Assembly: GCA_014236755.1 (NCBI GenBank)
Contig: JACCKY010000001.1
Location: forward strand, 1-64,000
DNA length: 64,000 nucleotides
Direction: 5' to 3'
Origin: Candidatus Petromonas tenebris
GTDB lineage: Bacteria; Bacillota; Clostridia; Peptostreptococcales; Caminicellaceae
Shown here one piece after another: positions 410 to 58,622 of the stretch. A program made the position numbers and the translations under genes. How positions within the stretch are numbered: the stretch's first letter is position 1; each line of letters opens with the position of its first letter. The notes under the pieces were generated by a model. That model did not search any database. It worked only from the letters and a program-made list of their open reading frames with translations, and had not been told where the DNA came from.

Positions 410-815
410 TGATCTACCTTGCACCATTATAGATAGCTTATTACCTAGCTATGATCTTTCGACCACAACCAAGCAGGTCACCACCTATAATGATGGGTTG
501 TTCGACCCTGCATGATATCTTAACAACCCTATGCAATCTCTCGACTGCATAGAATCATTAGCAGCATACTGCATTTGCAGTATACTACGTCGACACCACA
601 CAGGATCTTAGCTCGACCTTATATGATAGGTTGGGACCTTATTGCAATCATACTTACATACGACTACAATAAAACCTTTCCCAACCATATAAGATCTTCC
701 CTCCGACTGCATACTAGCCTCAATGACCAGTATGCAATCTTCGGCCGACCCATATATACCCCGAATCGGAGCATATATGAGTCTTGGCTCAACCATTACG
801 TACCCTTCGTTATTA
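410..815 (-). ncRNA. Candidate large structured RNA (family not recognised)
   Basis: This stretch has no convincing gene but is packed with inverted repeats. Read on the minus strand they form, in order: a hairpin at 751-779 (about 13 bp), one at 705-739 (13 bp), a long bulged stem closing 615-696 with a hairpin at 641-670 inside it, a hairpin at 561-588 (about 12 bp), one at 529-552 (10 bp closed by a GAGA loop of the GNRA type), a stem at 495-529 (8 bp), and a stem closing 423-494 with a hairpin at 433-452 inside it. Where an arm is not perfectly complementary, the pair is G-U on the minus strand and would be A-C on the plus strand; I count about twelve such pairs and none the other way round. 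A possible promoter (TTGTCT at 833-838, TATAAT at 812-817, short 15-bp spacer) precedes it, and a six-T run lies at 394-399. It could also be the 3' part of the SASP transcript. Ends are approximate. Confidence 0.5.
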
Positions 816-878
816 TAGTAACCATTTTCATAAGACAATATTCTGGTAAATTTATGAAATTATAATACTACACTGATT

Positions 879-3750: not shown

Positions 3751-4974
3751 ATGGAAAAAGTGGTTCAAAGATTTTTAAAGTATGTAAAAATTGATACCAA
3801 ATCTGATCCGGAGTCAGATACCTGTCCTAGTACAGAAAAACAATTTAATCTTGCAAAGGTGTTGGCAGAGGAGCTTAAAGAGCTCAAATTAAAAGATGTA
3901 AGCATGGATGAGAATGGTTATGTTATGGCTACTCTGCCAGCAAATACCGATGAGGAAATCCCAGTTATAGGCTTTGTAGCTCATATGGATACAAGCCCTG
4001 ATATATCAGGTGCTGATGTAAACCCACAAATAGTTAAAAATTACGATGGAGGAGATATAGTCCTAAATAAGGAAAAGAATATCGTTTTATCTCCAAGGGA
4101 TTTTCCGGAGCTAAAAAAATATGTGGGACAGGACTTAATAACTACCGATGGTACAACTCTTTTGGGAGCAGATGATAAGGCTGGTATAGCAGAAATAATG
4201 GATGCATTAGAGTACTTAGTAGAGAATCCTGATATAAAACATGGTACAATAAAGGTTGCCTTTACTCCGGACGAGGAAATTGGAAGAGGAGCTGATAATT
4301 TTAATATAGAAAAGTTTGGTGCAGACTTTGCGTATACCGTTGACGGTGGAGAAATTGGAGAGCTTGAGTATGAAAACTTTAACGCAGCCTATGCAAAGGT
4401 AAAAATAAACGGAAGAAATGTGCATCCAGGTTCTGCAAAAAATAAGATGGTCAACTCTATACTTGTAGCAATGGAGTTTAACTCGATGCTTCCAGTAAAT
4501 GAAAGACCTGCCCATACTGAAGGATATGAAGGCTTTTATCATTTAAACAATATAGAGGGAGATGTAGAACAGACTACCCTGCATTATATTATCAGAGATC
4601 ATGATAAGAAAAAATTTGAAGAAAAGAAACAGAGAGTAGAAAGAATCGTAAAATACTTAAATGACAATATTGGCAAAGGAACTGTTGAACTTCAAATGGA
4701 AGATCAGTATTATAACATGAAGGAAAAAATTGAACCAGTTATACATATAGTTGAAACTGCCGAAAGGGCTATGGAGGAGGTAGGAGTTAAACCTATAAGA
4801 AAACCCGTTAGAGGCGGCACTGACGGGGCAAGACTTTCATATATGGGACTTCCCTGTCCAAATATTTTCACTGGAGGGCACAACTTTCATGGCAAATTTG
4901 AATACATACCTATAGATTCTATGAAAAAGGCTTCAGAGGTCATTGTAAAAATAATAGAACTTAGCAGCAGATAA
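3751..4974 (+). CDS. pepT: Peptidase T (tripeptide aminopeptidase)
   Basis: This is a 407-residue M20B zinc aminopeptidase that releases the N-terminal residue from tripeptides in the cytosol. Di-zinc site motifs are in place: VAHMDTSPD (His and catalytic Asp), [15 protein letters not shown] (bridging Asp), [11 protein letters not shown] (catalytic Glu pair) and [12 protein letters not shown] (C-terminal His). [17 protein letters not shown] is the family-specific block before the last ligand. Length matches known PepT (about 408). The start has AAGGAGATG upstream. Confidence 0.95.
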
Positions 4975-24605: not shown

Positions 24606-25517
24606 ATGGACCTGACAGAGAATAAGTCAGGCAAAAGAGCTATGGCAAAAAATAATCTTCCAAAGTTTTTTAAAGAAATTGATAAAGAAACTTGGCTTGT
24701 TGAAGATGAAAGGGATAATATGAAGCTACACTACAGAGTTAAAGAAGTTATATCCTCTGAAAAATCTCCTTTCCAGCATGTTAATATTATAGATTCCTAT
24801 GATTTCGGACGCTGCCTTGTATTAGACGGTGTCATGCAGACAACAGAGCTTGACGGATATATATATAATGAAATGATTTCCCATGTACCTGCAGTTACCC
24901 ATGAGAATCCTAAAAAAGCCTTGATTATAGGCGGAGGGGACTGTGGAGTAGCAAGTGAGCTGTCAAAGTATAAAGAGTTGAAAGAAATAGATATGGTAGA
25001 AATAGATGAAATAGTAGTTAAAGAGTGTATAAAGAATATCCCAGCTATAGCAGCAAATGCTGCTAATGACGAGAGAGTAAACTTTCTATTTGAAGATGGA
25101 GTTAAGTTTGTGAAGGGCAAAAAGGATACTTACGATATAGCAATAGTTGATTCATCAGATCCTGTGGGTCCAGCAGAAGTTTTATTTTCTGAAGAATTCT
25201 ATGTGGATTTAAAAAATTCTCTTAAGAAAGATGGTGTAATGGTTTGCCAAAGTCAGTCTCCTATATTCCACAAGGATGTTCTAAAGAGAACACGTAGTAT
25301 ACTAAAGAAATATTTTCCTATAGTTAGAACATATAAAGCAGTTGTACCAAGTTATCCAGGAGGAATGTGGAGCTTTACTCTTGCATCCTTTAAATATGAC
25401 CCTTTAAAAGCAAATCTTAGTAGACTTGTCAGCAATACAAAGTATATAAATAAAGAAATTTTCAAGTCAAGTTTTAGCCTTCCAAACTTTATGATTGAAG
25501 ACTTTGAGGAAAAATAA
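24606..25517 (+). CDS. speE: Polyamine aminopropyltransferase (spermidine synthase)
   Basis: The 303-residue protein has the spermidine synthase pattern: GRCLVLDGVMQTTELDGYIYNE, HENPKKALIIGGGDCGVASEL (usual GGGDGG is GGGDCG), MVEIDEIVV and IVDSSDPVGPAEVLFSEEFY with the catalytic Asp. It transfers aminopropyl from decarboxylated SAM to putrescine. An N-terminal extension of about 18 residues precedes the family start; the ATG at 24642 is an alternative but has no ribosome binding site. No speA, speB or speD is adjacent. Confidence 0.93.
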   Translation: MDLTENKSGKRAMAKNNLPKFFKEIDKETWLVEDERDNMKLHYRVKEVISSEKSPFQHVNIIDSYDFGRCLVLDGVMQTTELDGYIYNEMISHVPAVTHENPKKALIIGGGDCGVASELSKYKELKEIDMVEIDEIVVKECIKNIPAIAANAANDERVNFLFEDGVKFVKGKKDTYDIAIVDSSDPVGPAEVLFSEEFYVDLKNSLKKDGVMVCQSQSPIFHKDVLKRTRSILKKYFPIVRTYKAVVPSYPGGMWSFTLASFKYDPLKANLSRLVSNTKYINKEIFKSSFSLPNFMIEDFEEK

Positions 25518-25592
25518 AAGTGGGGGTGCAGGGGGATTCCCCCTGCCGTTTTCAGGAGGATGCTCAGGCTGCTTGCGGTCGCTAATAGTAAC
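25518..25592. repeat. Short G+C-rich structured spacer
   Basis: Between two convergent genes lies about 75 bp far richer in G+C than its surroundings. It includes the perfect hairpin GCAGGGGG-ATT-CCCCCTGC (25527-25545), a run of five G before it, and CTAGGG/CCCTAG overlapping the stop codon of the adenosyltransferase gene. It may be a terminator for both genes or a copy of a dispersed repeat; only one copy is seen here. Confidence 0.45.
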
Positions 25593-41514: not shown

Positions 41515-41540
41515 AGTTAAAAAAATTATGAAAAATCTAT

Positions 41541-41777
41541 GAGGAAGAGGAGTAAGTAATAAACCATTTAGAGAGGGAAACTCGATGGGCTGAAAGGTTT
41601 CCCATGGCAATTATTACTGAAGGTAGCTTCTGAGATGCTGGACTGAAAACTGTTTGTGAGTAGGTTTGGCCGGGATATTCCGTTAAAGATAGGAGAGTGT
41701 TAGCTCTTTAGCTAGAAGTAGGGTGGTACCGCGAAATATGCCTTTTCGTCCTTATATGAGGATGAAAGGGTTTTTTA
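41541..41777 (+). promoter_or_regulatory. T-box leader with valine specifier GUA
   Basis: The invariant T-box AGGGTGGTACCGCG is at 41720-41733. Stem I can be traced from GGAAG (about 41543) through AGTAATAA pairing with TTATTACT, an upper stem GGGAAAC/GTTTCCC, and GTA at 41623-41625 on the 3' side of the specifier loop just before CTTC. GUA is a valine codon, matching valS downstream. The terminator (CCTTTTCGTCCT with AGGATGAAAGGG, then six T) is at 41741-41777. Uncharged tRNA-Val would favour the antiterminator. Confidence 0.93.
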
Positions 41778-58391: not shown

Positions 58392-58605
58392 TCAAACAGA
58401 TGAGATTCTTTTTGCCCCGTGTGAATTAGCACACCATCAATAGACTGGGCTATCTAATGATGACAGTACTATACTTATTTAGTATAGGCCCAACATACAG
58501 TTTTTAGGGAAAACTGTACATTTCGGCAACTGCACCTTTCCTAGCAAACTACGACTCCCTATGTCTAACTTGCAGTACTAATTACAGTTGCAGCCTCTAA
58601 ATCAC
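58392..58605 (-). promoter_or_regulatory. Lysine riboswitch (L box) aptamer
   Basis: The minus strand carries the L-box landmarks: GATTTAGAGGCTGCAAC at the 5' end, GGGAGTCG, GGAAAGGTGCAGTTGCCGAA in the core, then the long P4/P5 arms (ACAGTTTTCCCTAAAAACTGT and GCCTATACTAAATAAGTATAG). It lies between asd and dapA, with only about 20 bp after the asd stop codon, so it is in the middle of a transcript or served by a promoter inside asd. Lysine binding should favour the terminator and lower dapA-dapB-dapH expression. Confidence 0.9.
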
Positions 58606-58622
58606 AACATCAATATTTTATT

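Follow-up and report, generated by a model that had tools for sequence, protein, structure and literature searches.

In the window, by which we mean the whole stretch of 64,000 nucleotides (nt) analysed here (Candidatus Petromonas tenebris, assembly GCA_014236755.1, contig JACCKY010000001.1, positions 1 to 64,000), the minus strand encodes at 394-808 a structured RNA of ~415 nt which almost certainly represents a new RNA class. This RNA is predicted to fold into nine main helices in which G-U wobble pairs recur at fixed spacings, homologs are found in many genera of spore-formers and, as the promoters of these homologs indicate, it is very probably made in the forespore. The explanation we prefer, and to which we give an even chance, is a self-contained gene, composed of a forespore-type promoter, the RNA and a terminator, for a forespore-made RNA that would act in trans as a scaffold or sponge in endospore-forming Bacillota. 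A preliminary description, made from the letters of the window, had placed at 410-815, next to a gene for a small acid-soluble spore protein (SASP), a minus-strand RNA of about 400 nt, structured and unassigned. Fold, Rfam search, homologs and covariation all bear out this RNA, but its extent had to be shifted to about 808 to about 394, with the promoter reaching out to 843.

Fold and ends of the RNA

The minus strand of region 380-840 has a minimum free energy of -228.2 kcal/mol compared to -121.1 +/- 5.6 kcal/mol in dinucleotide shuffles (z -19.1), whereas the plus strand of the same region reaches only -116 kcal/mol (z -6.8). As the plus-strand fold is much weaker, the imperfect pairs are to be read as G-U pairs on the minus strand, in agreement with what had been proposed. 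Where at least seven stems had been noticed before, the minus-strand fold comprises nine main helices of 15-18 bp (P1, P2, P3, P4, P4b, P5, P5b, P6 and P6b) and an optional arm P5a, with about three quarters of the RNA base-paired. P1 closes the RNA into one unit by pairing its 5’ end (791-808, with two GNU/GNU wobble triplets spaced by 11 bp) with its 3’ end (397-414, followed by UUUUUU at 394-399), and carries the eight other helices. These are, all on the minus strand, the hairpins P2 (747-783; 768-783 pairs with 747-762) and P3 (705-739; 725-739 pairs with 705-719), both with a variable loop; P4 (681-696 with 615-630), on which P4b (662-676 with 635-649) is stacked beyond an internal loop and ends in a variable terminal loop, the whole covering 615-696; P5 (592-607 with 504-519), which encloses P5a and the hairpin P5b (543-558 with 523-538) within 504-607; and P6 (480-495 with 422-437), followed after an internal loop by the hairpin P6b (461-475 with 442-456), within 422-495. 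The nested arms and the GNRA loop noticed at first sight are present in this fold, GAGA closing P5b and a second GNRA loop, GAAA, closing P6b.

Both ends of the RNA were placed from the promoter, P1 and the U run, from which the RNA is predicted to start near 808, ~7 nt past the -10 element, and to stop within the U run (394-399). P1 together with this U run can be regarded as a candidate intrinsic terminator.

Regular spacing of the wobble pairs

All nine helices carry G-U pairs that are almost never turned into Watson-Crick pairs, and in an alignment of 39 sequences 26 pairs wobble in more than 85% of the rows. The wobbles occupy positions k, k+9 and k+11 in P3 and P5 and the mirror arrangement k, k+2 and k+11 in P4b, P5b and P6b, while P1 has both sets and P2, P4 and P6 have part of a set. 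Read on both strands, the pattern is G-N-U, eight bases, G-N-U (or G-U-C), also seen as GAU/GUC, and its two triplets are 11 bp apart, which is one turn of A-form RNA. The short recurring words GATTGCATA and ATGCAGTCG of the preliminary description proved to be this GAU...GUC motif at the helix ends, within similar stems.

A distance of 9 between wobbles was observed 8 times compared to 1.6 expected, and a distance of 11 was observed 7 times compared to 1.1. None of 20,000 permutations of the wobble positions within their helices reached the observed counts at distance 9 or 11, a result that measures regularity and is not an independent prediction, the positions having been chosen and tested on the same alignment. 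An independent test is provided by 17 GC-rich homologs, in which the motif positions stay wobble in 90% compared to 12% at all other pairs. Moreover, at one position of P1, U-G was swapped to G-U in three of 11 sequences, so that both sides changed and the wobble was kept. The pattern GNY-N8-GNY occurs 22 times per RNA, compared to 6.5 times in shuffles and 2.7 times on the antisense strand. We consider it likely that this wobble spacing is a specific docking signal.

Covariation

With 11 aligned homologs, 96.1% of the cells pair, 52 pairs have changed on both sides compared to 28.4 in shuffles, and the covariation score is 0.330 compared to 0.175; none of 500 shuffles reached the observed pairing, both-side changes or score, and sliding the pairing partners by 1-3 columns left only 37-43% pairing. 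Individual pairs were evaluated with a home-made, tree-based analogue of R-scape, distinct from R-scape itself, which places equal substitutions per column randomly on a FastTree phylogeny and uses a G statistic with average product correction. Against this null, 20 of 145 pairs were significant in 39 sequences, rising to 63 of 151 in 87 sequences with a GC content of 30-60%, where each of the nine helices holds 4-10 significant pairs. As findings that would tell against the RNA, the preliminary description had named homologs lacking compensatory changes and an exact match to a known mobile repeat; neither was found. Outside the secondary structure, no significant covariation was detected among the 87 sequences. 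GNRA loops stand at P5b and P6b in about 80 or more of these sequences, the loops of P2, P3 and P4b vary among homologs, and the conserved linkers are only short.

Homologs and distribution

The genome from which the window derives has a single copy, other matches there being only chance matches of 15-22 nt, and copies in related genomes are 69-84% identical. A pattern search with the 3’ end yielded 44 loci in named species, including Clostridium carboxidivorans, C. drakei, C. ljungdahlii, C. ragsdalei, C. magnum, C. thailandense and C. polyendosporum, many Desulfosporosinus, and Anaerovirgula, Natronincola, Maledivibacter, Anaeromonas, Marinisporobacter, Caloramator and others. Of two covariance models, R1 (P5b-P6) matches 53 of 398 genomes sampled across the phylum, belonging to 42 of 267 genera, and 15 of 297 genomes of the order, and R2 (P2-P4) matches 47 of 83 genomes in the class to which Desulfosporosinus belongs. 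In nearly all of 40 phylum loci fetched through R1 alone, R2 precedes the R1 match in the right register, which is an independent confirmation as R2 was not used in fetching them. The model of each half also matches the other half (E down to 4e-12), a resemblance that suggests an internal duplication and to which the shared wobble motifs could contribute.

Many genomes have several copies, some of them truncated. C. magnum has six to seven, four of which lie inside 33 kb (contig 16, 61-94 kb), C. carboxidivorans has four, and in both species the copies are well diverged within the genome. Three Desulfosporosinus copies (L063, L080 and L089) are without everything upstream of the P5b hairpin; their break points lie a few bases apart, beside the GNRA loop, and the DNA upstream differs. 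This shared break point could reflect integration of a mobile element at the P5b hairpin. L063 and L089 were left out of the alignment, in which they formed false full-length rows.

Promoter and link to sporulation

The DNA upstream of the homologs contains GNATA and a CATNNTA-like element, each at a constant position. When the upstream regions of 80 non-redundant homologs were scanned with B. subtilis consensuses, z amounted to 19 for sigma-G and 14 for sigma-F, compared to 3.5 for sigma-A, 3.4 for sigma-E, 3.1 for sigma-K and 0 for sigma-H, and a score of at least 0.88 was reached in 59% of the RNA upstreams compared to 1% of the 492 regions that precede ordinary genes in these loci. In the window, the -35 element is GAATA (839-843, minus strand), of the sigma-G/F type GHATR, and the -10 element is TACTATA (814-820, minus strand), which has 5 of the 6 specified bases and is weaker than the elements of the homologs (CATAATA, CATATTA, CATTCTA and the like). 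The sigma-G and sigma-F consensuses of C. difficile are closely alike and resemble those of B. subtilis, sigma-F being marked by an upstream G and sigma-G by a downstream A (Saujet et al., PMC3789822). Both marks are frequent in the RNA promoters, and we therefore call the promoter forespore-type and not strictly sigma-G.

A SASP gene is present in all 53 RNA-positive genomes of the phylum sample compared to 291 of the 345 RNA-negative ones, and sigG scores above the cut-off in all 47 RNA-positive genomes of the Desulfosporosinus class compared to 25 of the 36 negative ones. Together with the promoters of the homologs, this restriction to genomes bearing SASP or sigG supports the possible expression with spore genes that had been put forward initially.

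Genomic neighbourhood

An alpha/beta-type SASP gene (PF00269, E 1e-8) indeed lies directly upstream of the RNA at 879-1061 on the minus strand, as context outside the conserved unit. This adjacency, from which the spore link had originally been drawn, is a weak reason for it, as among the homologs the arrangement recurs only in Desulfosporosinus BRH_c37 (L135), in the same orientation; SASP linkage as a general context was rejected on this ground. At L135 the SASP gene occupies 4199-4375 and the RNA copy about 4495-4924.

Across about 100 loci, we found no protein family that repeatedly neighbours the RNA in a constant position, and the search for a conserved open reading frame (ORF) in the homologs returned a longest frame of 46 codons on average, compared to 40 in shuffles, with no common place. 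With neither a recurring neighbour nor a shared ORF, the RNA is to be seen as an independent gene that probably acts in trans. The conserved downstream gene expected of a cis-regulatory leader or riboswitch is missing from these loci, as is the shared ORF expected of a protein-coding gene. Among related Desulfosporosinus, orthologous RNA copies keep their genomic place.

Comparison with described RNAs

No Rfam 15 family matches the RNA at gathering thresholds, and in a search of 1-1400 with E values up to 10 the best matches were irrelevant (E 0.8-6), all far below threshold. This large noncoding RNA class, spread across many genera of spore-formers, was missed by the curated RNA library. In the open-licence literature we found no earlier description, uncurated candidate lists not having been searched; fragments of the RNA might already be contained in such lists, e.g. 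in those drawn up from the human microbiome (PMC8040213). Large structured bacterial RNAs and small RNAs of the forespore are known in general, yet this family with its repeated wobble architecture fits none of these.

Nearest in setting are CsfG, a forespore small RNA of endospore-forming Bacilli (PMC12456014), and the 294-nt Bvs196 of Bacillus velezensis, an RNA of the forespore that sigma-F and sigma-G control (PMC9147052). A sigma-F/sigma-G type promoter, such as a CsfG-like RNA should have, was found across the homologs, the site in the window being a partial match. Compared by description only, the RNA is set apart from CsfG by its ~415 nt, nine helices, wobble spacing and lack of an Rfam match, and from Bvs196, for which pairing with mRNAs is reported, by a predicted energy of -228 compared to -82 kcal/mol. 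Nearest in kind are OLE, ROOL and GOLLD, which are large, highly structured and conserved RNAs of unknown biochemical function from Bacillota and relatives (PMC12286853), and with which GNRA and A-minor type contacts are a plausible likeness. These RNAs are about 600-800 nt long with a long irregular fold (PMC12286853; PMC12054373, PMC11332333), compared to repeated equal helices in ~415 nt; the RNA described here also differs by its forespore promoter and by having no match in Rfam. OLE, ROOL and GOLLD did not match in the Rfam searches either, the presence of their models in our Rfam copy not having been checked by name. Kinship with CsfG, Bvs196, OLE, ROOL or GOLLD could not be shown.

Discussion

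In the explanation we prefer, sigma-G RNA polymerase, perhaps also with sigma-F, would make the RNA in the forespore, where its nine helices would provide double-stranded docking sites, about nine in number and equivalent to one another, each with two G-U marks in the minor groove that are separated by one helical turn. Most likely, in our view, several copies of a protein that reads double-stranded RNA would bind these sites and make the RNA a multivalent scaffold or sponge, acting in the forespore or the dormant spore. Slightly more than half of the likelihood that we give to a docking signal goes to a protein, rather than RNA, as the putative main partner, and protein binding is preferred over packing of helices. 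The model for this is given by substrates of proteins with double-stranded RNA-binding domains (roX RNA with MLE, Staufen sites and VA-I RNA): in these stem-loops, marks spaced by about one turn are recognised from the minor-groove side, as proposed here. Among such substrates, a single small RNA with nine equivalent sites would be unusual, and the partner is here a putative one.

Several points weigh against this explanation. The protein step is an analogy with a hypothetical partner, and the GNRA loops suit tertiary contacts between RNAs equally well. The promoter in the window is a partial match with a score of 0.78. The p values for the co-occurrence with SASP (2e-4) and sigG (Fisher, 4e-5) ignore relatedness, and the base rate of spore genes is high. 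Finally, the sigma consensus strings follow the B. subtilis literature, with GHATR-N17/18-CATNHTA for sigma-G. The work of Saujet et al. (PMC3789822) supports the likeness of the clostridial and B. subtilis consensuses only, and not these strings themselves.

A possible but rather doubtful alternative is an architecture of RNA only, in which wobble triplets and GNRA loops would pack helices within or between copies into a tight bundle or a homo-oligomer, as in GOLLD, ROOL and OLE, which assemble without protein (PMC12286853). The GNRA loops at P5b and P6b in almost all 87 homologs would fit such packing, and wobbles that in each helix share one face at a distance of one turn would suit side-by-side minor-groove contacts; however, just two of the nine helices are capped by a conserved loop, the loops of P2, P3 and P4b vary, leaving no conserved kissing loops there, and the absence of significant covariation off the structure differs from ROOL and GOLLD, whose bridges showed up by covariation. 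Base-pairing with mRNAs by a forespore small RNA, in the manner of Bvs196, is improbable because conserved unpaired sequence is scarce and the loops of P2, P3 and P4b are variable: some three quarters of the nucleotides are base-paired, and the conserved single-stranded linkers, which are short, have changed in the GC-rich subfamily, including the Shine-Dalgarno-like GGAGGG of the P3/P4 linker. A Shine-Dalgarno or anti-ribosomal role of GGAGGG was rejected on account of this alteration.

Slightly less probable again is housekeeping transcription by sigma-A with no special spore link, the promoter likeness then arising from an A+T-rich -10 region alone. The -10 region of the window reads TATAAT, as sigma-A would have it, but across the homologs sigma-A scores are barely above shuffles and no upstream attains 0.88, with z far below that of sigma-G; most homologs have CATAATA, CATATTA or CATTCTA, and SASP or sigG is present in all RNA-positive genomes. 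The least probable reading takes the locus for a mobile or parasitic repeat, that is, inverted repeats of a transposable element that happen to fold. Multiple copies, as in C. magnum and C. carboxidivorans, differing neighbours, truncated copies and one copy beside phage genes are what such a repeat would give, but compensatory changes run throughout, wobbles are kept on one strand only, the promoter is conserved, no ORF is shared and orthologous copies stay in place among related Desulfosporosinus. Nor do we see the near-identical dispersed copies without covariation of miniature inverted-repeat transposable elements or repetitive extragenic palindromes, the own genome having a single copy and the copies being 65-90% identical with compensatory changes.

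For the scaffold or sponge RNA, the wobble spacing constitutes a simple testable code, as changing G-U to G-C at fixed positions keeps the fold and should abolish function. The code opens a way to the partner and to the question whether RNA has a part in building or protecting spores, and the promoter ties the RNA to the forespore, where roles of RNA are almost unknown. More speculatively, the RNA might belong to the structure of the dormant spore as a repeated component, its nine equal, wobble-marked sites ordering either the RNA itself or a protein of the spore into an assembly; if true, an architectural RNA would be known for the first time from bacterial endospores, and a periodic wobble code of this sort for the first time from any RNA.

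Minor observations

In phage and plasmid collections, only one remnant of 45 nt matched, on Priestia megaterium plasmid NZ_CP092390.1. It corresponds to the last 45 nt of the RNA, is 89% identical and lies in an intergenic region (L051, 2501-2545); given this remnant, Bacilli probably hold, or formerly held, full copies. A transposase suspected by eye beside the remnant gave no match in Pfam. On the viral contig IMGVR_UViG_3300029823_000092, two ThsB-TIR genes are followed by a 5’-truncated RNA copy (RNA end at 1533) and then by phage head-tail genes, so that the copy looks like it occupies a cargo spot of a prophage.

Elsewhere in the window, an EAL-domain gene (PF00563) at 2-319 on the plus strand has an in-frame TAG at 317-319 (KCD*GQGYFFSRPL), past which the frame goes on with a typical EAL C-terminus; the TAG may be a nonsense mutation or, less likely, a site of readthrough. 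Clear Rfam matches in the window are a T-box leader at 41530-41756 (plus strand), a lysine riboswitch at 58419-58607 (minus strand) and a Clostridiales-2 RNA at 25514-25592 (plus strand).
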